This document shows, piece after piece, positions 1 to 46,499 of a stretch of 64,000 nt of DNA. The translations under genes and the position numbers were made by a program. The notes under the pieces are model-generated. The model did not search any database, was not told the DNA's origin, and saw nothing but the letters and a program-made list of their open reading frames with translations. This stretch comes from Gemmatimonadaceae bacterium (GTDB taxonomy: Bacteria > Gemmatimonadota > Gemmatimonadetes > Gemmatimonadales > Gemmatimonadaceae). Where the stretch lies: positions 62,001-126,000 of the forward strand of contig JAUQWM010000063.1 of NCBI GenBank assembly GCA_030835125.1. Reading direction: 5' to 3'. The stretch's first letter is position 1. Each line of letters opens with the position of its first letter.

Positions 1-817
1 CGACCGGTACGATGAGGTTCCGTTGCTGGAGGTCCTTCAGGATCGCGAACGCCTCGTCGCTCCCCATGTACGACCGGTTCCGGCCGTCCTGGTCCGTCGC
101 CGTCATGAGCATCCGGTAGCTCGGCATCCCGCGCCCGCCAAATCCGCGCATCGCGTTCGTCGAGTACGTCAGCGCCGTGCCTGCCTGGAAGAACGCCGAG
201 TACACGTACCGGAGGCTGGACAGGTCGGCGCCATCGAGGTGGAACCCGTGGACCTTCGTCAGGTGGTTGACGATGGCCGCATGGTTCGCCTCGAACAGCG
301 CCGTGTCACGTGGCACCGACGCCAGCCACGAGAACAGCGTGTCGGCCTCCAGGCCCGCCGGAGGCGGCTCGGGCCAGTTCCTCGAGAAGAGCCGCGCCAG
401 AAAGTCGGCGCGATCACTCGACATCTCGATGAGCGCCTTGTACATCAGGTGCTGCAGCAGGTTCTGCCGGCGGATATCGACGATGAACGCGATCCGCGGT
501 CGCAGGGCCGTGAGGTAGGTGAAGTTCTGGTCGGGCCCAACCCCGACGTACACGCCACCCGTCCCGGTCGTGGACACCAGTTCGTCGATGACGTACTGAA
601 ACCCCAGCTCGTTCGAGACGAAATTGTCTGAATGGAAATAGCCGCCAGGTTCCGACAGGTCGTTGACCATCGCCCAGAACGTGCTGTCATCCAGGCGCTC
701 GGGGATCGTGACTGTGCTGCGCGCGCAACCGACGGTGGCCTGGGTGAGCCCGGCGACGAACGCCGTCGCCAGCAGGACGTGCGTCAGGGATCGCGAACGC
801 GGATGCAGGGCGGGCAT
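1..817 (-). CDS. Conserved exported protein of unknown function (3' end outside window)
   Basis: Reading the minus strand from an ATG at 817-815 gives an uninterrupted frame to base 1, at least 272 residues, so the C-terminus lies beyond the window. The start region has a basic n-region, a hydrophobic stretch (VLLATAFVAGL) and then VGC, which suggests a Sec signal and possibly a lipoprotein cysteine, although the lipobox is poor. The mature part contains VGVGPDQNFTYL and, shortly after, a PRIAFIVDIRR/QHLMYKAL segment. This looks like a conserved hypothetical family with a folded globular domain, but I cannot name a function or catalytic residues. Its 5' end overlaps the divergent plus-strand beta-helix gene by about 15 bases if both starts are right, so one start may be misplaced. 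Codon bias is clearly that of a real gene: several plus-strand open frames over this stretch are compositionally odd shadows. Confidence 0.75.
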   Translation of the reverse strand, partial: MPALHPRSRSLTHVLLATAFVAGLTQATVGCARSTVTIPERLDDSTFWAMVNDLSEPGGYFHSDNFVSNELGFQYVIDELVSTTGTGGVYVGVGPDQNFTYLTALRPRIAFIVDIRRQNLLQHLMYKALIEMSSDRADFLARLFSRNWPEPPPAGLEADTLFSWLASVPRDTALFEANHAAIVNHLTKVHGFHLDGADLSSLRYVYSAFFQAGTALTYSTNAMRGFGGRGMPSYRMLMTATDQDGRNRSYMGSDEAFAILKDLQQRNLIVPV

Positions 818-34177: not shown

Positions 34178-37100
34178 TCAGCCCCCGGCCTCAACCGCCA
34201 CAGCGGCAGGTCCATCGGTCACGCCGCCCCGCCCAGGCGCTGCCTCTACCACCACGTCGTGTCGCTGACCATCATCGACGAGGCGGATGACGCCGTCGCC
34301 AACCCGGACGCCGTCCACACTCACCACGGCGCCGCGACGCTGCACGCCGGCGGGATCGTGCACCGCAATCGCGTACGTCGCTTCCCCGAAGCGATACGCA
34401 ACCTCGTAGTCGCCCCACGCCTCCGGCACGCGCGGCTCGATCCGCAGCGTATGTCCGACCTTCCGGAACCCGAGGATCTCCTCGATGCCCACCCGGTACA
34501 TCCAGCTCGCCGAGCCCGTGTACCACGTCCACCCTCCGCGACCGAGCTGCGACGGCGCCGTGTACACATCCGCCGCCACGACGTACGGCTCCACCTTGTA
34601 GGTCGCCATGTCCGCCGCGTTCGCGCTATGCGTGAGGGGATTGAGCATCTGGAACAGCTCGAAGGCCCGGTCGCCGTTGCCCTGGCGGGCGGTCGCCATG
34701 ACGGCCCACAAGGCGGCGTGCGTGTACTGGGCGCCATTCTCGCGCACCCCGGGCACGTATCCCATGATGTACCCCGGGTCATGCGTGCCCCGGTCGAAGG
34801 GCGGCGTCAGGAGCATGATCAGGCGCGCGTCCTCGCGCACCAGGTGCGTGTTCAGCGCGCGCATCGCGAGGTCCTGCCGCGCGGGCAGGCCCGCACCCGA
34901 GATCACGCTCCAGCTCTGCGCGATCGCGTCGATCCGGCACTCGTCGTTGCCTGCCGACCCGAGGGGCGTGCCATCGTCGTAGTACGCTCGCCGATACCAC
35001 TGGCCATCCCATCCGCTCGCCTCGACCGCCGTCACGTAATCGTCGGCCTTCCGGCGCCAGGCGGCCGCCTCGGCGTGATCGCCACGCGCGTCGGCGTGCC
35101 CGGCGAACGACCGCAACGTGTCGACCAGGAACCAGGCCAGCCATACGCTTTCACCGCGTCCCGCCGCGCCCACCCGGCTCAAGCCGTCGTTCCAGTCGCC
35201 GGTCCCGATCAGCGGCAACCCGTGCGGGCCGACCGAGCACGCCTTGTTCAGCGCGCGACGACAGTGCTCGTACAGGGATCCGTGTTCATCCGTGACCATG
35301 GGCAGGTCATACAGCTCGTGCTCCTGCTCGGCGAGCGGGCGCATGGTGAGGAACGGCACGTACTCATCGAGGATGAAGGTGTCGCCCGTCACGCGCACGT
35401 ACCGATCGACGACATACGGCAGCCAGGCGAGGTCGTCCGAGAACCTCGTGCGCACGCCACGCCCGTTGTGCGGGTGCCACCAGTGCTGCACGTCGCCCTC
35501 GACGAACTGACGCGTCGCCGCGCGCAGGATGTGGGCGCGCGCCGTTTCCGGTTCCGCGTACACGAAGGCCAGCACATCCTGCAGCTGGTCCCGGAACCCA
35601 TAGGCGCCGCTGCTCTGGTACGGCCCGACCCGCGCCCACATGCGACACGCGAGCGCCTGGTAAAGCATCCACTTGTTGAGCATGGCGTCGAACGCAGCGT
35701 CCGGGGTCCGGATCGTGATGACGCTCAGGCGTTCGGCCCATTCCGCCACGGCCTTCGTGATCGCGACACGCCCCTGACCGGCGGGTCGCAGCCGGTCCAG
35801 CGTGCGCACGGCATCGGCCTCGCTGCGGGCGGCGCCGAGCAGCACGGTGACCTCGCGGATTTCGCCCGGGGCGAGGACGAGCTTCATCTGCAGTGCCGCG
35901 CAGGGATCCAGGCCGACCCCGGTCCTGCCGTCGAGTCGTTCGTGCCGGAGCGCCGCCGGATCCGCCAGGCTCCCGTTGCGCCCCAGGAAGGTCAGGCGAT
36001 CCGCCGTGTAGCTCGTCAGCGGTTCGCTGGCGGCCAGGAACGCCGTCCACTGGGTGAACTCCGGGTCGAAGTGATTCTGGGCGAGGATGGCACTCCGGCT
36101 CGCGAGGACATTCGTGCGCACCTGGGAGTGCGTGTCCACGCGCCGTGCCCCCAGGGTCCACTCCGCATACGCGGTGAGGGTGAGCCGGCGGGGGCGGTCG
36201 GTCAGGTTGCTGACCCGGATGACGGACACCTTGACCGCGGCGTCGTCAGGCACCCCCAGCAGGAGCTCGGTATGGATGCCGTCGTGCCAATGCTCGAACG
36301 TGGTGCGACCAGGCGCGTGGCTCACGCGATACGACCCGTCGCCGTTGACCGGCGCCGGGGTCGGGCACCACAGGTCACCGCTGGCGTCGTCCTGCAGGAA
36401 CAGCACGTCGCACATCGGATCCGCGACCGGATCGTTGTGCCACGGCGTCAGCCGGTAGAAGTAGGCGTTCTCCGCCCACGTGCAGCCGGCGCCCCGCTCC
36501 GACACGATGAACCCGCCCTGGGGATTCGCGATCACGTTGACCCAGGGCGCGGGCGGGAGGCGGGTGTCGTCCACGACCATCTGGTAGTCACCCTGCGCGT
36601 CCAGCCCACCGATCCCGTTGTGGAACTGCAGCGCCTCCGGCTCCGCAGCGGAGCCGGGACCCGCACCGAGGGCACGGCGCACGCGCGGCATCAGCGGCGC
36701 GACCAACGGCAGCAACCGGTCGACGATGGACGCCAGCGCCCCATTCCGTTCAACCGGCACGCTGACGGGCGTGCTGCGCTCGAGCATCCGGCCCGCCTCG
36801 CTGGGCGATTGGTCCGGGGAGGACGCATCCCGACGCACGGCCGCACTGGCGAGGATCCGTGCCAGGGAGCGTCCATCGCACGCGACGTGCATGCGCGCCG
36901 TGGCCGATAACATCAGGTACTCGTCAGGCTGGAACACATCCCTCCGACGGACGAACACCCCGCCGGGCTGGTCGAGCAGCGCCGCGTCGTCGGCCGACTG
37001 CATGGCTTCGACAATGCCGTCGCGCAATTCCTGCAGGTAGTCGTAGGAATGCGCGTTGATCACGACCAGGTCGACCAGGAGCCCGCGACGCCGCCAGTAT

Positions 37101-40100
37101 CGGTGCGCCCGGAACAGGTCGCGGAGCGTCGGCACGCCGCTGAGCGAATCGATCGTGGCCAGCACGATCGGCAGGTCACCGGAGATGCCGTGCGGCCACA
37201 GGCGGGGCTGCGATCCCCGGTTCCGCCGCAGTTCGTCGATCGGCGGGCCGAGCGTGCCGGCGCCGTAGAGCAATTCCGCCGCCAGATCCTGGAAGACCGC
37301 GGCGCTCGCCGGCGTGATGCCCAGCTCGCGCAGCTCGATCTGCGTCGCGGTCCACGCCATGTCGAGCGCGCGCTGGGCCGCCCGCGGATCGTGGTACCGG
37401 TCGGCGAGGGTGAACGCCTCCTCCCGGCTCTTGGCGACCAGGGTGGTGAACGACACGCTGGTCGACTGCCCGGGAAGGACACGGACGCGGGTGCGCAGCG
37501 CCATGATCGGGTCGAGCACAGCGCCGGTCGTGCCGGACAGGGCACCGTGCGACGCCATCGCCGCGGGATTGCGCACGGTGCGGCCGCGGCCGACGAAGCG
37601 GGACCGGTCCGTCTCGCAGGTGACCGGGCCGACGCGATCGCGTCCCGAGTCCACCACGTGCACGAACCAGAGCCGCGTCTCCGCCTGCTCGCGCGGGCGC
37701 CGCGTGGCGGTGATCGCGGTGCACCAGGGGTGCCATTCGGTCTCGACGAACAGGTTCGAGAAGGCGGGATGCGCCTGGTCGGCGGCGGGCGGCGCCATCA
37801 CGACCTCGCCATAACTGGTCAGCTCGATCTCGGCGGGTTCCCGTCCCGTGTTGGTCAGCGTCACGCGCCGCACCTCCGCCGAATCGCCCGGGACAACCGT
37901 GACATCGGTCCGGGTCTCGATCTCGCCATCGACGCGATGCAGGGTCACCCGGTCCGTGGCGAGCCAGGCGCGACTCCAGTCGGGACGCACCCCGGTGGGC
38001 TGCAGTGCGGTGGACCAGGTGCGGCCGCTCTCCACCTGCCGCACGTAGCAGAACTGGCCGGTGTCGTCCGTGGTGCGGTCGGCACGCCACCGCGTCACCG
38101 CCAGCGAGCCGTACCGGCTGTACCCGGTGCCGTCGTGGGTGAGCATGACCGTGTACGGCACCGATCCCAGGAGCGCCACGCGCGGACCACTGGCGTCGGC
38201 GGGGTTCACCTCGCGCACGACAGGCAGGTCGCGATCGAATGCCGGCCGGGCTTCGTCGGGTCGCGCGGTCTGCGGTTTCCGCATCACCAGCCGGCGCGGG
38301 ATGCGCTCGTGCAGGAGCAGTTCGGCGGCCTTGACCAGCGGATCGGCGTGGAAGCGTTGCTGCCAGATGTCGTCAAGCAGCACGTTGGTGAGCGCAGTGA
38401 GCGTCATCCCCACGTGGTGCGCCATGTGCGTGCGCACGATCGCGAATCGATGGCCGGCCGCGGGCCGCGTGAAGTCGAGCGCGTCGTGAAATCCGTGCGC
38501 CCCCAGCGCGCCCATGGTCTCGAGCACCTGCAGGTTGGCCAGGGCGCGCACCGGCTCGATGAGCGCCGCCAGCGCGCTGGCATACGGGGCAACCACCAGG
38601 TCCCTGCCCAACCCGCGCTTGAGCGCGAGATCGGGCACCCCGAAGGCACGGTACTGGTAGGTCTGGTGGCGATCGCGATGGTTGTACGCACTTTCACTCG
38701 ACCCCCACGGCACGTCGCGCGCGCGCGCGTACGCGACCTGCCGTTCCACGACGCCCCGATACGTCTGGTCCAGCAGCGTGAAGGGCAGCGAGCGCATGAC
38801 GAGCACCGGCATCAGGTACTCGAACATGCTGCCGCTCCACGAAAGCAGTGCCGTCGCCCCTTCGACGCGGTTCAGCGCCCGTGACAACCGGAACCAGTGC
38901 TCCACCGGCACGTCGTTCCTGGCGACCGCGATGAAGCTCGCCAGTCGTGCCTCGGACGCCAGCAGGTCATAGAACGCCGCGTCCGGCGTAAACGTCGCGG
39001 GATGGTATCCGATCGTGAACAGCTTCCGGGTCTCGTCGTAGAGGAACGCGAACTCCATGCCGAGGGCGAACGCGGACGCCTGCTCTGCCAGCGCCTGCAG
39101 GCGCTCCCGCAGCGCCGGCTCCCGCGTGGCGACCTGCAGGCACGCCTGGCCCAGCGCGATCAGGTGGCCTGCGAGGTTCCCGCTGTCCACGACGCTGATG
39201 TACGGAGGGTCGAGGACCTCGAGGTCCGGCAGGCGATACCAGTTGAAGAAGTGGCCGCGATACCGGGGCATGCGTTCCATCGTGGCCAGCGTCTTCTCCA
39301 GGCGCTGGGTCATGTCCGCCGCCGTGATCAGGCCGAGGTCGTGCGCGCTCACCGTCGCCAGCAACTGGAGTCCGATGTTCGTCGGCGACGTCCGCATCGC
39401 CACCTCGACCTCCGGGTCCGACTGGACGTTGTCCGGCGCCAGCCAGCGCGTTCCCTCGTTCACGTACTCATCGAAGAACCGCCAGTGCAGCGTGGCGTAC
39501 CGCGCGGCCACCGCGCGCTGCGACTCGGACAGTCGGCGGCGGGCGGCCATCGCCGGCTGGCTCAGCCGGATCATCACCGTCGGCGCCGCCAGCCACAGGA
39601 CCACGAAGCCGAGCACCAGGGACCCCACCGGCAGGAGCTGGATCAACGGCACGCCCACCGCCAGGCGATGGAACAGGGCGACGTACAGGAGGATCACGAA
39701 GGTCGCGCCAGCGACCGCGACCGACGCGCGCATCGCCCGCCAGGTCTCGGACGGCATATCGGACACGCTGCGCTCCACCAGCGACGCCGATTGCCACTCC
39801 AGCAGGTTCCGCCGCGAGACGAACAGGCGGTGCAGCGTCCGCACGATCGCGTCGGCCGACACGAGAGCCTGGTGCGGAAGGCTCACCAGCGCGACCGCAG
39901 CCTGCTGCGCGCACACCACCGCATCCTGTCCGACCGCGGCATAATACGCGCGCCACGACTTGTCGCGCGGTGGCCGCACCAGGGCCAGCGCGATCGCAGT
40001 CGCCCAGGGGGCGACGATGGCGCCGAGCCCGATCAGCGTCCAGCGCCACGCGGAGCCGGGCAGCACCGTCCAGCCTCCCACCAGGAGGAGGAGTTGGGCG

Positions 40101-42682
40101 ATCTCGACCGTGCTGCGGCGCAGGTTGTCGATGATCTTCCAGCGGGAGATGATCGACAACCGGTTGCGTTCGGGACCGTCCGGTCCCGGCACCATGCTTC
40201 GCAGCCACGGGAGCAACTGCCAGTCGCCGCGGATCCACCGGTGCTTGCGTCGGGTGTACGCGAGGTAGCTCGTCGGGTAGTCGTCGTAGACGATCACGTC
40301 GGTGGCGAGACCGGCGCGCGCGTAATTGCCCTCGATCAGGTCGTGCGACAGCAGCGTGTTCTCGGGGAACCGTCCGTGGGTCGCCAGCTGGAAGGCATCG
40401 ACATCGTAGATCCCCTTCCCCGTGAAGCTCCCTTCGCCATAGAGGTCCTGGTAGACGTCGGACACCGCCATCGAGTACGGATCCACGCCGGGATGCCCCG
40501 AGGCAATGGCGGCAAAGCGCGACCGGTGCGCGCTCGGCAACGATACGCCCACGCGGGGCTGGAGGATTCCATAGCCCGTGACGACGCGCTTGCGATCGGC
40601 GTCGTACACGGCGCGATTGAGGGGATGGGCCAGCGCGCCAACCAGCGAGGGCGCCGCATCCGGGGGCAGCACGGTATCGGCATCGAGCGTGATCACGTAC
40701 CGGACGCCCTGCAAGGTCGCGAGGTCGCCGCTGGTGACCGGGAACGCGTCGGCGGCGCCACCGCGCAGCAGGCCATTGAAGTCCGACAGCTTGCCGCGCT
40801 TCCGCTCCCAGCCCATCCACACCCCCTGCCGCGGGTTCCAGCGTCGCGGCCGGTGCAGCAGGAGGAACTCGTCAGGCGCGTCGGACGCGTGACGCTCGTT
40901 GAGGGCCCGCACGCCCTCGACGGCGGCGGCCACGATCGCGGCGTCGCCCGGCATGACCTCCTGCGGGGCGTCGGTGAAGTCGCTGAGGATGGCGAAGTGC
41001 AGGTGCGCCTCCCGGTTGGCGAGGAACTGCACCTCCACGTTCTCCAGCGCCTCGTGGACGTCGTCGACGCTGCCGAACAGCGTCGGGATCACCACGACCG
41101 TGCGATACTCCGCCGGCACGCCGTCCTCGTGCAGGTCCAGGCGCGGCAGCACGCGCGGCGGGAGCAGCGTCGACACCAGCTGGTTCAGGACCGTCACGGC
41201 CACGTCGAGCGCCGGGAAGAAGGCCACCAGGAGCACCAGCCACCAGCTGTCGCGCATGCCGACGCCAGTCAGCAGGGTCGCCCCCAGCGTCGCCAGCACG
41301 GCCAGGACTGACAGGCCGCCGATGAAGACCGTGTTCGGGTGGTCGCGGACCAGGCGCTCGACGCGCTCACCGGTCGGCGGCGAGTATCCGGCGAGTCGCT
41401 CGAGTTCATCGAGCCCCTCATCCACGAGGTAGAAACCCACGTGGGACCGGCGCGCGTCGCGTTCGACGTGGGTCCGCGCGAGGTCGACGGCCCACTGCGC
41501 GACCGAGGCCTCCCGGTGGTCGGTGCGCTTCGCGATGCGCTCGACGACGTGACGATACCGATCGCGCGTCGCGAACGTCATGCGCGGGTAGAACCCGGAC
41601 GGGTCCTCGCGCAGCACCGCCTCCATCACGCTCTGCTTCTCGACGAACTGGCGCCAGTCCCGTCGCCCGATGTCGCGCAGGCTCGTGATGCTGTTCGCCA
41701 TCATGATCTGCGTCAGCGCCAGTCGTTGCGTCGACCGGGCCGTCACGTCCTCGGGGCTGACCCCCGCTTCACGCAGCCAGTTCTCGAGCCACGCCAGCGG
41801 CGGGAACGCGCCCTCTGCCTGGCGCAGGGACTGGAGGAAGCGCGAGACGAAATGCGGCGTCAGGGTGTGCTCGGCCGCGACGAACTCGCCCAGCGCGGCG
41901 CGCAGGCTGGTGCCGCCGGCGGACGCCACCGCCAGGATCCGTTCCGCCCAGTGCGCGGCGAGGGCGATCTCGTCCAGGTGCTGGACACTGCGCAGCGTCA
42001 TGCGCCGGACGCTCTCGATCAGCCCGATGCGCAGCATCGCCGGCATCGCCCACAACTCACCCAGGGTCAGCGGCGTGACGCCCTGGAACGCCTCCACGAA
42101 CAGGTCGACATTCTCCATGTCGATGCGCGCTTCGGTGTGCGAGATGAGCGCGATCGCCACCTCGTAGGCGCGCGGGTACCCGGTCAGCGGACCGCTGGCG
42201 AGCTCGGGCAACTCGCGGTAGTAGCGGCCGGGCAGGCTGGCGCGCACTTCCTGCAGGTGCTCCTGCACGACGTAGTAGTTGTCGAGCAGCCACTCCGCGG
42301 CCGGGCCAGCGTCGAGACCGGCAGCCGCGGCGGCATTCAGCCGCTTGTGCGCGTCCGCCAGGAGCCGGCTGGTGTCAGCGAGCCGGGCCAGGAGTCGCGC
42401 CGGACGCCATCGGACGGGGCCGGCGACCAGTCGCTGCCCTCTCGCCACCGCGCGCGCGCGAGCCGCAAGGTGATCGGCACCAAGCAGTTCACCCCGAATT
42501 GGTCCAACCAGCAACTCCTCCGAGGCCGCCACGCGCCTGCGCTCCGCCCGCGAACTCATCCGGTGCCGAAACCGGAGTCCCGGACGGCGCGCGCTCGGGG
42601 AGTCCTCGATGGCAGGTTGGGCATAGGCACCGTTGAAATGGCGGACAGCGACCGGAGAAACTCGCGGTCGTGGGGGAGTCAC
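34178..42682 (-). CDS. Cyclic beta-1,2-glucan synthase-like giant enzyme (GT84 + GH94)
   Basis: About 2,834 residues from GTG 42682; ATG 42559 (41 codons in) is an alternative. Order: N-terminal regulatory region to about 440, transmembrane helices near 447-500, a GT84 glycosyltransferase with TLDADTVLPP near 664 and RKHRWIRGDWQ, more helices at about 860-1010, a glucoamylase-like domain with SGSMFEYLMPVLVM near 1285 and HMAHHVGMTL, and C-terminal GH94 phosphorylase-like modules with FSDDLAWLPYVV and the catalytic region GTGDWNDG near 2495. Homologues such as NdvB polymerise UDP-glucose to cyclic beta-1,2-glucan, with the GH94 part setting chain length. The product is exported to the periplasm in known systems. 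All main catalytic segments look intact. The single largest gene of the window; no transporter gene (ndvA type) is next to it. Confidence 0.93.
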   Translation of the reverse strand: MTPPRPRVSPVAVRHFNGAYAQPAIEDSPSARRPGLRFRHRMSSRAERRRVAASEELLVGPIRGELLGADHLAARARAVARGQRLVAGPVRWRPARLLARLADTSRLLADAHKRLNAAAAAGLDAGPAAEWLLDNYYVVQEHLQEVRASLPGRYYRELPELASGPLTGYPRAYEVAIALISHTEARIDMENVDLFVEAFQGVTPLTLGELWAMPAMLRIGLIESVRRMTLRSVQHLDEIALAAHWAERILAVASAGGTSLRAALGEFVAAEHTLTPHFVSRFLQSLRQAEGAFPPLAWLENWLREAGVSPEDVTARSTQRLALTQIMMANSITSLRDIGRRDWRQFVEKQSVMEAVLREDPSGFYPRMTFATRDRYRHVVERIAKRTDHREASVAQWAVDLARTHVERDARRSHVGFYLVDEGLDELERLAGYSPPTGERVERLVRDHPNTVFIGGLSVLAVLATLGATLLTGVGMRDSWWLVLLVAFFPALDVAVTVLNQLVSTLLPPRVLPRLDLHEDGVPAEYRTVVVIPTLFGSVDDVHEALENVEVQFLANREAHLHFAILSDFTDAPQEVMPGDAAIVAAAVEGVRALNERHASDAPDEFLLLHRPRRWNPRQGVWMGWERKRGKLSDFNGLLRGGAADAFPVTSGDLATLQGVRYVITLDADTVLPPDAAPSLVGALAHPLNRAVYDADRKRVVTGYGILQPRVGVSLPSAHRSRFAAIASGHPGVDPYSMAVSDVYQDLYGEGSFTGKGIYDVDAFQLATHGRFPENTLLSHDLIEGNYARAGLATDVIVYDDYPTSYLAYTRRKHRWIRGDWQLLPWLRSMVPGPDGPERNRLSIISRWKIIDNLRRSTVEIAQLLLLVGGWTVLPGSAWRWTLIGLGAIVAPWATAIALALVRPPRDKSWRAYYAAVGQDAVVCAQQAAVALVSLPHQALVSADAIVRTLHRLFVSRRNLLEWQSASLVERSVSDMPSETWRAMRASVAVAGATFVILLYVALFHRLAVGVPLIQLLPVGSLVLGFVVLWLAAPTVMIRLSQPAMAARRRLSESQRAVAARYATLHWRFFDEYVNEGTRWLAPDNVQSDPEVEVAMRTSPTNIGLQLLATVSAHDLGLITAADMTQRLEKTLATMERMPRYRGHFFNWYRLPDLEVLDPPYISVVDSGNLAGHLIALGQACLQVATREPALRERLQALAEQASAFALGMEFAFLYDETRKLFTIGYHPATFTPDAAFYDLLASEARLASFIAVARNDVPVEHWFRLSRALNRVEGATALLSWSGSMFEYLMPVLVMRSLPFTLLDQTYRGVVERQVAYARARDVPWGSSESAYNHRDRHQTYQYRAFGVPDLALKRGLGRDLVVAPYASALAALIEPVRALANLQVLETMGALGAHGFHDALDFTRPAAGHRFAIVRTHMAHHVGMTLTALTNVLLDDIWQQRFHADPLVKAAELLLHERIPRRLVMRKPQTARPDEARPAFDRDLPVVREVNPADASGPRVALLGSVPYTVMLTHDGTGYSRYGSLAVTRWRADRTTDDTGQFCYVRQVESGRTWSTALQPTGVRPDWSRAWLATDRVTLHRVDGEIETRTDVTVVPGDSAEVRRVTLTNTGREPAEIELTSYGEVVMAPPAADQAHPAFSNLFVETEWHPWCTAITATRRPREQAETRLWFVHVVDSGRDRVGPVTCETDRSRFVGRGRTVRNPAAMASHGALSGTTGAVLDPIMALRTRVRVLPGQSTSVSFTTLVAKSREEAFTLADRYHDPRAAQRALDMAWTATQIELRELGITPASAAVFQDLAAELLYGAGTLGPPIDELRRNRGSQPRLWPHGISGDLPIVLATIDSLSGVPTLRDLFRAHRYWRRRGLLVDLVVINAHSYDYLQELRDGIVEAMQSADDAALLDQPGGVFVRRRDVFQPDEYLMLSATARMHVACDGRSLARILASAAVRRDASSPDQSPSEAGRMLERSTPVSVPVERNGALASIVDRLLPLVAPLMPRVRRALGAGPGSAAEPEALQFHNGIGGLDAQGDYQMVVDDTRLPPAPWVNVIANPQGGFIVSERGAGCTWAENAYFYRLTPWHNDPVADPMCDVLFLQDDASGDLWCPTPAPVNGDGSYRVSHAPGRTTFEHWHDGIHTELLLGVPDDAAVKVSVIRVSNLTDRPRRLTLTAYAEWTLGARRVDTHSQVRTNVLASRSAILAQNHFDPEFTQWTAFLAASEPLTSYTADRLTFLGRNGSLADPAALRHERLDGRTGVGLDPCAALQMKLVLAPGEIREVTVLLGAARSEADAVRTLDRLRPAGQGRVAITKAVAEWAERLSVITIRTPDAAFDAMLNKWMLYQALACRMWARVGPYQSSGAYGFRDQLQDVLAFVYAEPETARAHILRAATRQFVEGDVQHWWHPHNGRGVRTRFSDDLAWLPYVVDRYVRVTGDTFILDEYVPFLTMRPLAEQEHELYDLPMVTDEHGSLYEHCRRALNKACSVGPHGLPLIGTGDWNDGLSRVGAAGRGESVWLAWFLVDTLRSFAGHADARGDHAEAAAWRRKADDYVTAVEASGWDGQWYRRAYYDDGTPLGSAGNDECRIDAIAQSWSVISGAGLPARQDLAMRALNTHLVREDARLIMLLTPPFDRGTHDPGYIMGYVPGVRENGAQYTHAALWAVMATARQGNGDRAFELFQMLNPLTHSANAADMATYKVEPYVVAADVYTAPSQLGRGGWTWYTGSASWMYRVGIEEILGFRKVGHTLRIEPRVPEAWGDYEVAYRFGEATYAIAVHDPAGVQRRGAVVSVDGVRVGDGVIRLVDDGQRHDVVVEAAPGRGGVTDGPAAVAVEAGG

Positions 42683-43143
42683 CCACCCTCCATGCGCGCC
42701 GATGTTCCTGCATCAAACCTAACCACTGACCGCGGCCGGTGACGGATGAAGTCCGTCGATCCGGGGACAGGTTTCGCCGTCTCTGCCGGCTCACACGACC
42801 CCCGCGCTGGCGCCTCAGCGGCCTCAAGCTGCCGGATTCGGCTGCCTAACGCGACATGGCTGCGTCGGCTGGCCAGGAGCGCCCCGGCGCGTGTCCGCCA
42901 GACACGCTGGCCCATCCTCGAGGCATCCGCGCCGGCCAGCGAACGCTCTGCGGATCGGTACGCGTGAACAGCCGAGGGGGTCCGGTCCCGTCCTTCGGAC
43001 GACCCCTCCCCGTCCCCCCCGGCCGGCCGCCGCCGTCGCAACGGCCCGGAGTCGCGCCGCGTACTTGCCAAGTCAGATTCATGAATTATTCATGACGTGC
43101 CCAACAGCGGTTCCGGTCACTCACCCCTCCCCGAGACCTGAGA
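42683..43143. other. Divergent intergenic region between glucan synthase and TonB receptor
   Basis: About 460 bases without a credible gene. Inverted repeats are GGCCAG/CTGGCC (42871-42876 with 42907-42912) enclosing GCGTGTC/GACACGC (42889-42895 with 42901-42907, five-base loop). A cobalamin-riboswitch consensus, often found ahead of TonB receptors, is not present. The AT-rich island with the 17-base palindrome lies at the receptor end. Both gene promoters must be here. Confidence 0.45.
43079..43095 (+). promoter_or_regulatory. Perfect palindrome TCATGAATTATTCATGA upstream of TonB receptor
   Basis: Eight-base arms TCATGAAT and ATTCATGA around a single T, 48 bases before the receptor ATG. The same sequence also forms a direct repeat of ATTCATGA (43077-43084 and 43088-43095). 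It stands out as an AT-rich block in very GC-rich flanks. Likely a dimeric repressor operator controlling the receptor, possibly by metal or nutrient status; I cannot match it to a named regulator. Confidence 0.6.
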
Positions 43144-45444
43144 ATGCGCCGATCCCTCTGGCTGCTGCTCGCTGCACCCGCCCTTCTCACCGCCGGAATC
43201 GCCAGGGCTCAGGCCGGAGGCACCGTCCGCGGCACCATCACCGCGGCCGAGGGTCGGGCGCCGGTCAAGGGAGCGCGCGTCGCGATCGCCAGCCCGTCCC
43301 GGGTCACCACCTCGAATGACCGCGGCGAGTACACCCTCCGCGACGTCCCGGCAGGCGAGTATGAAGTCCTTGTCACCGCGGTCGGCCGTTCGCCCGCGCG
43401 CACAACCGTAAGCGTGCGCGCCGCCGAAGAGGCGCGCGCCGACGTCTCCCTGACGGTCGGGTCCATCATGCTCTCGGGAGTGCTGGTGTCCGCCACCAGC
43501 GCCCCGATCGACGCCGACAAGGTCGCCGCGACCGTCAACGTGCTCACCGCCGCGCAGGTCCACGCCAGCCCGGCGCGCGAGACCCAGGACATGCTGCGCG
43601 AGGTACCCGGCATCGAACTGCCGCGCACCAGCAGTTCGGTCGGCGGCAATGCCCAGATCGTCTCCATCCGCGGCGTCGACGAGGGGCGCACCGCGGTGCT
43701 GCTCGACGGCGTGCCGCTGACCGACGCCTGGGGTGAGTGGGTCGACTGGAGCCGCGCCCCCAAGGACCTCATCGAGCGCGTCGAGGTCCTCGAGGGCGGC
43801 GGCTCCAACCTCTACGGCAATGGAGCGATGGGTGGCGTCATCTCCCTCTTTTCACGGCCCATCGCCCCGGGGAGTTACCGTCTCTCGGCCGCCGGTGGCA
43901 GTCGCGATACGCGCTCGGTCTTCCTCTCGGCCGGCGCCCCGCTCTCGGGACCGTTCGCGCTCTCGGTGGTCGGTGACTATGCCAGCGGCGGCGGCTATCG
44001 GATGGTCGCGCCAGCCAGTGCCGGCCCGATCGACACCGCGTCGAATTCCATCCGGCGCAACGCGATCGTGCGCCTGGAATACGCCCCGAGCGCGACGTTC
44101 AACGCCTTCGTCTCCGGGCATCTCTTCGGCGACAACCGCAGCCTCGGGACGCCGCTCAGCCGCGCCGCGCGCCGCGACGGTTCGACCGAGGGCGGAATCA
44201 ACTTTGGCTCCGCGAACACCGGCATGCTCAGCGCGCGCGCCTGGGACAGCGAGATGCGTGAGGACAACTGGTCCACGAGCGTCTCCACGGTGAGCGGCGT
44301 GGCCCGTGCGCTCGAACGCGTGACCGCCTGGACGCACATCCCTTCGTACGACCGCGGCGTGGCCCTCTCGTGGAACCGCAGCCACGTGCTCGGTTTCCAG
44401 TCGGTCGGTTTCGGCGGTGACTACCGCTACATGCGCGGCTTCCTGGTCGAGCAGGACTACGCGAACAACGCCGGCAATGCACCCACCACCCACAGTGCCT
44501 ACGGCGGCAACCAGTCGTTGAGCGGCATATTCGCCACCGGCCTCCTTGCCCCATCGCCGTCGCTCTTCGTGGAACTGAGCGCCCGGTTCGATCGCTGGGG
44601 CAACAACGACGGGTTCTCGAACGACGCCAGCGGCGCCGCGAGCTATCCCAACGCCACCCGCAGCGCGTTCTCCCCGCGCGTGGGCGCCAAGTACCTCGTG
44701 ACCCCGCAATTCGCGGTACACACGGCCTACTACCAGGCCTTCCGTGCGCCCAACCTCGCCGAGTTGTACCGCAAGGCACTGGGCAACACGATCAGCCTAC
44801 CGAACCCCGCCCTCAAGCCCGAGTACGCAACGGGCTACGAGTTCGGCACCGACTGGCAGCCGGCGCACTGGTTCCAGTTGAAGGGCACCATCTATCACAC
44901 CGATTACCGCGACTTCAACACCTTCGTGACCGCCTCGGCGCCGGGGGTGACCCCGGCGACGCGCCAGCGGCAGAACGTGACGAAGGCCCGCGGCCTCGGG
45001 GGAGAGATCTACCTCGCCCTCCGGCCGACCGAACAGTTCGACTTCAGCGCCAGCGCCAACTTCAACAACACGCGGGTCAGGGATCTCGGCACCGCCGCGT
45101 CGACGGCCACGCTCCACGAAGGGGCCCGGGTGGCGCGTGTCCCCAGGGAAAAGGGCACCGTCCGGATGGCCTACAACGCGCCGGGTCTTGGCACCGTCAC
45201 GCTCCTGGGCCGCTACGAGGGAACGAACACGACCTTCGGCAACTCGTTCACGCTCCCGGGGTTCACCGTCGTCGACATGAGCTACTTCCGGAGGATCGCG
45301 AATGGACTCGACGTGATTGCCGGGATCGAGAACGTGCTCGACCGGGCGTACTGGGTGAATGCGTCCGGCAACGCCGCGTCGCCGTTCGTGTCCCTGGGCC
45401 TGCCGCGCACGGTGCGCCTCGGCTTCGAGGCATACCGCAACTAG
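43144..45444 (+). CDS. TonB-dependent outer-membrane receptor
   Basis: 766 residues. Signal peptide RRSLWLLLAAPALLTAGIARAQ, then a carboxypeptidase-regulatory-like beta-sandwich at about 27-110 (VRGTITAAEGRAPVKGARV, GEYTLRDVPAGEY), the plug at about 120-230 (VPGIELPRTSS, VSIRGVDEGRTAVLLDGVPL, ERVEVLEGGGSNLYG) and a 22-strand barrel to the C-terminus (FRAPNLAELY, LKPEYATGYEFG, IENVLDRAYWVN, final RLGFEAYRN). It imports a scarce ligand such as a siderophore, cobalamin, nickel or oligosaccharide, powered by TonB. The substrate cannot be read off. The N-terminal sandwich is common in carbohydrate- and metal-type receptors of Bacteroidetes and relatives. A palindromic operator candidate lies upstream; the gene encoding the next lipoprotein follows after 80 bases. 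Confidence 0.95.
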   Translation: MRRSLWLLLAAPALLTAGIARAQAGGTVRGTITAAEGRAPVKGARVAIASPSRVTTSNDRGEYTLRDVPAGEYEVLVTAVGRSPARTTVSVRAAEEARADVSLTVGSIMLSGVLVSATSAPIDADKVAATVNVLTAAQVHASPARETQDMLREVPGIELPRTSSSVGGNAQIVSIRGVDEGRTAVLLDGVPLTDAWGEWVDWSRAPKDLIERVEVLEGGGSNLYGNGAMGGVISLFSRPIAPGSYRLSAAGGSRDTRSVFLSAGAPLSGPFALSVVGDYASGGGYRMVAPASAGPIDTASNSIRRNAIVRLEYAPSATFNAFVSGHLFGDNRSLGTPLSRAARRDGSTEGGINFGSANTGMLSARAWDSEMREDNWSTSVSTVSGVARALERVTAWTHIPSYDRGVALSWNRSHVLGFQSVGFGGDYRYMRGFLVEQDYANNAGNAPTTHSAYGGNQSLSGIFATGLLAPSPSLFVELSARFDRWGNNDGFSNDASGAASYPNATRSAFSPRVGAKYLVTPQFAVHTAYYQAFRAPNLAELYRKALGNTISLPNPALKPEYATGYEFGTDWQPAHWFQLKGTIYHTDYRDFNTFVTASAPGVTPATRQRQNVTKARGLGGEIYLALRPTEQFDFSASANFNNTRVRDLGTAASTATLHEGARVARVPREKGTVRMAYNAPGLGTVTLLGRYEGTNTTFGNSFTLPGFTVVDMSYFRRIANGLDVIAGIENVLDRAYWVNASGNAASPFVSLGLPRTVRLGFEAYRN

Positions 45445-45524: not shown

Positions 45525-46499
45525 ATGGACAGGGCACCCCTCCACCTGGACCGTCTTCGGCCCATCGCGGCTCTGCTGGCCCTCGCGTGCGGCGGAGGAG
45601 CCGGCGATAAGCAACCGGTCGGCCCACCGCCGGCAGCGTCCGTCGCGCGAATCGACCTCGCCCCGGGCAATGTCACCTTGCCGACGGGCACCACCATCCA
45701 GTTCCACGCGGCTGCTCGCGACGCGGCGGGCGGGCTTCTGGCCGCCGTGGGCGTCTCCTGGTCCACCAGCGCGGCCGCCGTCGCCAGCGTATCGAGCGCA
45801 GGCCTGGTGAGCGCGCTCGCACCCGGCATCGCCACGATCACGGCAGCGGCTGGCGGAAAATCCGCCGGGGCCACCATAACGGTTCAGGCGCTCTACGACC
45901 TCGACGCGCTCGGCGTACCCCGCATCGTGACCGCCGACTACATCGAGCTGTCGAAGGTCGCGCGCATTTCGAGGTTCCGCTCCGGCATCGGCCACGACTA
46001 TGCCGATGACGTCGAGCAGTGCCGCAGCATGAAGCACTACTTCCAGCCGTCCGCGTCGGTTGACTGGGCGAGCATCGTCATCAGGTCTCCGGTTGATGGA
46101 ACGGTCGGTGCCATCATCGACGAGCAGACGTTCGGCAAGCAGGTGCGCCTGGTGCCGTCGAGCACCGCCGCCGCCACGGTGATCATCTTCCACGTGAACC
46201 CCGATCCCGGCCTGGCGGTGGGGACCGTGGTCAGCGCGGGGATGCGCCTGGGGACGCACATCGGAAGCGCCACGATGTCGGATGTCGCCATCCTGCTGGA
46301 GACGCCTCGCGGACGCCGGCTCGTGTCCTGGTTCGATGCGATGACCGACGCCGTGTTCGCGGGCTACCAGTCGCGTGGCGTTTCCTCGCGCAGTGCGGCC
46401 GTCATCACGGCGTCGGAGCGCGACGGGAGCCCGTTGACCTGCAACGGTGAGGCGTTCGCGGGATCGGGGACAATCCAGAACTGGCTGGACCTCCCGTAA
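45525..46499 (+). CDS. Lipoprotein with Ig-like domain and degenerate M23 (LytM-like) domain
   Basis: 324 residues, ATG 45525. Lipobox LALAC with Cys22. A BIG2 Ig-like domain covers about 38-120 (VARIDLAPGNVTLPTGTTI, TITAAAGGKSAGATITV). The C-terminal half resembles a LytM/M23 endopeptidase: GHDYADD gives an HxxxD first zinc motif (His157, Asp161), IRSPVDGTVGAI fits the first core strand, and VSAGMRLGTHIGSA fits the VxxGxxIGxxG segment. The second motif, normally HxH, reads FHV at 222-224, so one zinc ligand is replaced. It may bind peptidoglycan or regulate an active enzyme. It follows the TonB receptor on the same strand and converges with the glycine-rich lipoprotein gene, six bases apart. 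Confidence 0.72.
   Translation: MDRAPLHLDRLRPIAALLALACGGGAGDKQPVGPPPAASVARIDLAPGNVTLPTGTTIQFHAAARDAAGGLLAAVGVSWSTSAAAVASVSSAGLVSALAPGIATITAAAGGKSAGATITVQALYDLDALGVPRIVTADYIELSKVARISRFRSGIGHDYADDVEQCRSMKHYFQPSASVDWASIVIRSPVDGTVGAIIDEQTFGKQVRLVPSSTAAATVIIFHVNPDPGLAVGTVVSAGMRLGTHIGSATMSDVAILLETPRGRRLVSWFDAMTDAVFAGYQSRGVSSRSAAVITASERDGSPLTCNGEAFAGSGTIQNWLDLP

Follow-up and report, generated by a model that had tools for sequence, protein, structure and literature searches.

A conserved palindrome upstream of a TonB-dependent receptor gene of Gemmatimonadaceae as a predicted operator of a two-component response regulator

The palindrome and its second genomic copy

In the window, as we call the whole 64,000-nucleotide stretch of Gemmatimonadaceae DNA that was analysed, a short palindrome precedes the gene of a TonB-dependent receptor (43144..45444, plus strand; 766 amino acids, with Pfam plug, barrel and CarboxypepD_reg domains). 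Is this palindrome a control site and, if so, which regulator reads it and with what effect on the receptor, its predicted controlled gene? The original prediction, made from the sequence alone, took it for a strong operator candidate, and its description of the site was accurate. The 17-base perfect palindrome TCATGAATTATTCATGA occupies 43079-43095, with arms of 8 bp on each side of T43087; the direct repeat ATTCATGA is found at 43077-43084 and again at 43088-43095; 48 nt lie between the palindrome and the receptor ATG at 43144; and the surroundings are GC-rich (0.76-0.88 in 50-base windows just upstream, 0.48 over the site). The length of the palindrome is ordinary, since three palindromes of this form (8-bp arms without mismatch, 1-nt gap) occur in the window and the mean under a first-order Markov model is 3.97. 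It is, however, the only one of them that is AT-rich (at least 5/8 A/T per arm), and no AT-rich one appeared in any of 60 simulations. With as many as 3 mismatches allowed, the specific site sequence is expected 0.01 times in the window. The specific sequence, and not the palindrome length, is the real signal, and it lies well beyond chance. In the site model built from the alignment described below, the predicted operator spans 21 bp (43077..43097, plus strand) around the core palindrome. Its two half-sites, with the consensus RTTCATGA, are the two copies of the direct repeat on the plus strand, the second starting 11 bp after the first.

Homology says little about the cargo of the receptor: its matches are weak and mixed (haem, B12 and colicin I receptors), and all ligand-type matches among those listed fall below the NCBIfam cut-offs. 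The next gene on the receptor strand (45525-46499, plus) starts 80 nt downstream of the receptor; it encodes an Ig-like (Big_2) protein of 324 amino acids, a possible operon partner. No known RNA was found in the window with Rfam at the gathering threshold. The gene divergent from the receptor (34178-42682, minus) encodes a 2834-amino acid protein with glycosyltransferase, glycoamylase-like and GH94 domains, and resembles the cyclic beta-glucan synthases. Joint control of this gene by the palindrome, which had been suggested, is not supported: its ORF start lies 397 nt away, and at the other receptor orthologues no GH94 homologue was found in the flanks examined (1.5 kb, more in six genomes).

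Exact matches to TCATGAANNNTTCATGA were sought in the genome (4.48 Mb, 73 contigs), and two were found against 0.0016 expected. The second copy, for which the original prediction had asked, is likewise placed before a TonB-receptor start, at 40 nt compared with 48 nt in the window. Its coordinates are G000:C20:77237-77253 (L037 9238-9254). The receptor that follows it is a different one, starting with GTG (L037 9197..7155, minus). On its other side, at a distance of 53 nt, a histidine kinase gene ends (L037 10789..9308, minus), which is itself preceded by a response-regulator gene (L037 11515..10793, minus). The regulator has Response_reg and Trans_reg_C domains, that is, it is of the OmpR/PhoB type, and the pair is on a different contig from the window receptor. 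The best NCBIfam match of the kinase was the heavy-metal sensor family TIGR01386, from which it was left out because its 259.6 bits are below the cut-off of 292.55. Behind the C20 receptor are genes for a PepSY_TM protein and a further secreted-looking, LamG-like protein, whose homologue in genome G146 matches Pfam 3keto-disac_hyd and Laminin_G_2. The arrangement in which the regulator-kinase pair is directly upstream of a TonB receptor, with the site in between, was found at C20 and in G149, G147, G122 and G108; the window receptor joins it only via its G149 orthologue.

Co-occurrence of the site and the kinase

The family set comprised 179 genomes. A kinase orthologue was defined by at least 53% identity, the next matches having at most 50%, and 34 genomes were kinase-positive, including G068:C261 (69%, residues 244-476 only). 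Genomes with a best match of 50% or less were counted as kinase-negative, e.g. G088 (50% over residues 6-352) and G113 and G022 (50%, partial). Sites with at most one mismatch were present in 41 of the 179 genomes and a reversed control pattern in five. These sites numbered 50, including 11 exact ones; the genes around every site were inspected and classified with a profile derived from 30 TonB receptors. Other TonB-receptor genes share the site, a point that the original prediction had proposed to check: 21 of the 50 sites, including nine of the 11 exact ones, are 5′ of such genes.

The exact site was found in 9/34 kinase-positive and 0/145 kinase-negative genomes, and when one mismatch was allowed the fractions rose to 21/34 and 20/145, respectively; the counts were taken over related genomes, so that tests on them overstate independence. 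Of the 21 TonB-linked sites, 19 belong to kinase-positive genomes; the other two are in G184 (74% complete) and G112. Among 30 kinase-orthologue loci an exact site lies beside the kinase in five and a two-mismatch site in one, and at 20 kinase-paralogue loci no site was better than 3 mismatches. Of the two exact sites not linked to TonB receptors, one lies in G146 between the kinase and a homologue of the C20 LamG-like protein (34% over 208 residues); in G090 such a homologue (30.5%) likewise has a model hit in front of it, a weak one (E 0.298). The other exact site, TCATGAATAATTCATGA at L075 4056-4072 (G009:C32), is in an 8-kb locus with no TonB-receptor match. A profile search of genome contigs with the kinase alignment returned mostly distant kinases from other phyla; at the best-matching locus (L207, 49%, from a Gemmatimonadota MAG) no site was better than 5 mismatches.

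A sequence-only model was then trained on the 21 TonB-linked sites, two of which come from kinase-negative genomes, and used to scan the kinase-positive genomes and 34 kinase-negative genomes chosen from the 145 by completeness. At E<=1 it gave hits in 23/34 and 2/34 genomes, respectively, the latter two both near 0.64, a result that is partly circular because the training sites come from the same genomes. The 11 kinase-positive genomes without a hit were G077, G084, G085, G087, G091, G155, G157, G159, G167, G183 and G028; possible reasons are drift of the operator or a different set of targets. A cleaner test used genomes outside the family, three of which, in a sample of 395 genomes of the phylum, have the kinase at E<=1e-100 (G055, G305, in which kinase identity is 52%, and G319). 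The model scored strongly in all three (E 0.0016-0.0075), every hit being an exact site before a TonB receptor; in G319 the site follows the kinase match at a distance of about 50 nt. Among 20 control relatives, each without a kinase match at E<=1e-60, one had a model hit, which was at chance level (E 0.435) and had no TonB-receptor match next to it.

Relatives of the window receptor (42-60% identity) were found in 21 other family genomes, and the matrix used to score their upstream regions was built without this receptor group, more than 20 bits being taken as strong. The original prediction would have been refuted by the lack of a second genomic copy and of conservation at orthologous promoters; the second copy exists, and conservation holds for part of the orthologues: five of seven kinase-positive genomes have a strong site at the receptor orthologue (31.8 bits in the window, 40.2 in G149, 40.0 in G146, 27.8 in G009 and 24.6 in G090) compared with none of 15 kinase-negative genomes, among which the best score was 15.6 (G089). 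The G090 site is in the reverse direction and further upstream than the others. G068 (14.5) and G183 have the kinase and no strong site at the receptor orthologue. The G149 orthologue, directly behind the regulator-kinase pair, carries the identical 17-mer. In G014 and G148, of the same genus, the receptor is present without a kinase orthologue and without a site, and in G137 (L164), which has a short upstream flank, the best matrix score anywhere was 3.5. Outside the family, G048 has a partial receptor relative (46%) and neither the kinase nor a model hit.

The original view of the palindrome as an operator is supported by these results: it is operator-like, common to other TonB-receptor genes and kept at several orthologous promoters. 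Very probably it is a real, conserved control site through which a two-component system would switch outer-membrane uptake receptors. It is quite likely that the predicted binder is the OmpR/PhoB-family regulator encoded at C20. In the recognition region, 31 of 32 orthologous regulators have SNI[IL]DVY, compared with none of 17 readable paralogue rows.

Promoter position and repeat architecture

Promoters were located relative to the site at 25 loci. The best sigma-70-like match has a -10 hexamer that starts 10-16 nt before the site in 17 of them, most commonly 13 nt, and in those 17 loci the promoter ends about 7 nt upstream of the site; 15 of the 17 have a TTGC-type -35. Promoters with at least 7/12 consensus matches were found just upstream of the site in 14/25 loci, whereas four bins further up had 0/25 apiece and three downstream bins 1/25 apiece. 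The TAnnnT element alone was found just upstream in 11/21; three bins further up had 0/21 apiece, and the downstream counts were 2 and 0. For both counts the bins had been set after the site alignment had been seen. All three out-of-family sites show the promoter element. The recurring form (e.g. L288, L289 and L290), in which TTGC at -35 is followed after 16-19 nt by a -10 resembling TAnnnT, may be the usual sigma-70 promoter in these bacteria. Since the -10 starts 10-16 nt before it, the site covers the expected transcription start. In the window no promoter was called at the usual position, and a scan of 42600-43300 for consensus promoters and terminators gave no match. A possible -35, TTGCCA (43065..43070, plus strand), agrees with the TTGC-type -35 at other loci; 16 nt after it is TATTCA (43087..43092, plus strand), a weak possible -10 that is put forward with low confidence. 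This TTGCCA would place the weak -10 on the second half-site, which would be a blocking arrangement too.

Repression is the likeliest direction of control because the promoter ends just upstream and the site is at the transcription start, and we consider it fairly likely on this geometry. The same regulator could bind and activate the receptor gene, as PeuR and PfeR do, and the published pairs that adjoin TonB-receptor genes are indeed activators, as far as the accessible part of PMC4141801 describes them. Activation is nonetheless unlikely here, as a -10 that starts 10-16 nt before the site in 17/25 loci leaves the site in a poor activator position for this family.

TCATGA is its own reverse complement, so that two copies in the same orientation also form a palindrome; the site looks palindromic for this reason, and only the flanks distinguish a direct from an inverted repeat. 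Aligned in the direction of the gene, the sites have a consensus close to GTTCATGAAANATTCATGATT, and in most copies both TTCATGA are preceded by a purine, which gives RTTCATGA twice with an 11-bp pitch, the same sequence being an inverted repeat as well. When receptor groups were left out in turn, the gene direction scored higher at 18/21 sites and in 10/11 groups for columns -1..17, at 17/21 and 9/11 for columns -2..18, and at 14/21 and 8/11 for columns -6..22, weaker with wider flanks. Sites found later agreed in three of four cases, and the window copy is almost neutral in direction (31.8 vs 31.5). Known sites of OmpR/PhoB regulators are all direct repeats according to the part of a structure paper available to us (PMC4832192). 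A head-to-tail response-regulator dimer is favoured by these observations, without certainty, and given the C20 regulator the site is probably a direct repeat.

The competing model is a symmetric dimeric repressor (TetR, MarR, ArsR or similar) on an inverted repeat, with the regulator-kinase pair merely belonging to the same functional set. Symmetric dimeric repressors are often located at transcription starts. Several features fit an inverted repeat: the window copy is perfectly palindromic, strict complementarity holds between alignment columns 6 and 10, an A is conserved behind the first half-site, and the G009 copy, symmetric in its outer part, forms a longer, imperfect palindrome (pairs counted by eye). 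Against this stand the directional flanks in 18/21 sites, the self-complementary TCATGA, from whose direct repeat the palindrome follows, and the fact that the site tracks the kinase within and outside the family. We regard such a repressor as rather improbable, and the TetR-type regulator of the original prediction with it, since a symmetric dimer leaves the mostly directional flanks unexplained.

TonB-receptor genes are classic targets of Fur. A Fur-family regulator acting on a diverged Fur-type box would fit this and the overlap of Fur boxes with promoters (PMC5231390, accessible portion). This reading, Fur being among the candidates named in the original prediction, is disfavoured because the distribution of Fur does not track the site. 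PF01475 was not detected in G149 (98% complete) and G146 (79% complete), both of which have exact sites, and G147 (99% complete) has a match below the cut-off only; yet Fur is over the cut-off in 22/34 kinase-negative genomes, and 32 of these 34 have no model hit. At E<=0.001, genomes without PF01475 were G149, G146, G068, G028, G159 and nine of the 34 kinase-negative ones. Only 6 of 14 positions of the site core fit the Fur consensus, and we consider Fur very improbable. The operator of NikR, the remaining candidate named at the outset, is GTATGA-N16-TCATAC; the half-sites here are 5 bp apart instead of 16 bp, a spacing that does not fit NikR. Finally, an action in RNA as a four-codon leader ORF (ATG AAN NNT TCA TGA) is hardly credible, for although the window copy reads ATG AAT TAT TCA TGA and many copies have a similar ORF, the first ATG is lost in L090 and L104, the stop in L058, L100, L101 and L102, and the second ATG in the G009 orthologue, with the half-site spacing fixed. 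Three loci (L077, L100 and L102) have a called receptor frame that starts within the site, which would suit a leader ORF; as this start is an ATG inside the operator, the start-codon annotation at these loci is uncertain.

Proposed regulation and related systems

A tandem operator of the C20 regulator, placed at the receptor promoter and repressing it, is a likely explanation of the whole set of observations. Two regulator molecules would bind head-to-tail to RTTCATGA half-sites one helical turn apart, on a site that would overlap the receptor core promoter or transcription start, and binding would block RNA polymerase and lower the synthesis of the receptor. The signal may be of the metal or siderophore type, and the stimulus of the kinase is likely related to the cargo of the receptors. 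The orphan receptor of the window would join a small predicted regulon for which there are a candidate regulator, an operator and a promoter model, and the operator is sharp and rare enough to make the system directly testable. The case also illustrates how a self-complementary half-site can disguise a direct-repeat operator as a palindrome and misdirect the search for its regulator. That the two-component system is the main repressor of TonB metal or siderophore receptors in genomes without detectable Fur, such as G149, seems quite improbable; if true, a tandem response-regulator site at the transcription start would do the job of Fur in those members.

No paper on a TTCATGA response-regulator operator was recognizable by title among the matches listed, and the system was likewise absent by title among the matches listed from the literature of the phylum on TonB or two-component regulation, subscription papers being mostly outside both searches. 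Related systems are known from other bacteria. In Pseudomonas aeruginosa the metal-responsive pair CzcRS lowers the outer-membrane protein OprD, according to the part of PMC3362554 available; OprD, however, is a porin, and the C20 kinase is below the cut-off of the heavy-metal sensor family. PhoP of Mycobacterium tuberculosis, one of the closest relatives of the C20 regulator with a solved structure, binds two 7-bp direct repeats with a 4-bp spacer as a tandem dimer, with the same 11-bp pitch as here (PMC4832192, available part). Its half-site is TCACAGC, and it does not belong to a TonB-receptor system. PeuRS of Vibrio parahaemolyticus resembles the C20 locus in that the pair is immediately upstream of a TonB-receptor gene, peuA, which has a tandem CpxR-type box; it differs in that it activates peuA, whereas the geometry here suggests repression, and in the box itself, A-N3-GCAAA-N4-GTAAA compared with RTTCATGA repeats (PMC4141801, as far as accessible). 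The window receptor differs from both PeuRS-peuA and PfeRS-pfeA of P. aeruginosa, in the accounts accessible to us, in being on a contig apart from the pair. A parallel to the predicted repression is VgrR of Xanthomonas campestris, from another bacterial group, a response regulator that binds the tdvA promoter and represses this TonB-receptor gene; phosphorylated VgrR represses under iron limitation, and the tdvA receptor hinders iron uptake (PMC5231390, accessible portion). The predicted switch is of a kind known in bacteria, of which the operator at the receptor promoter would be a new example.
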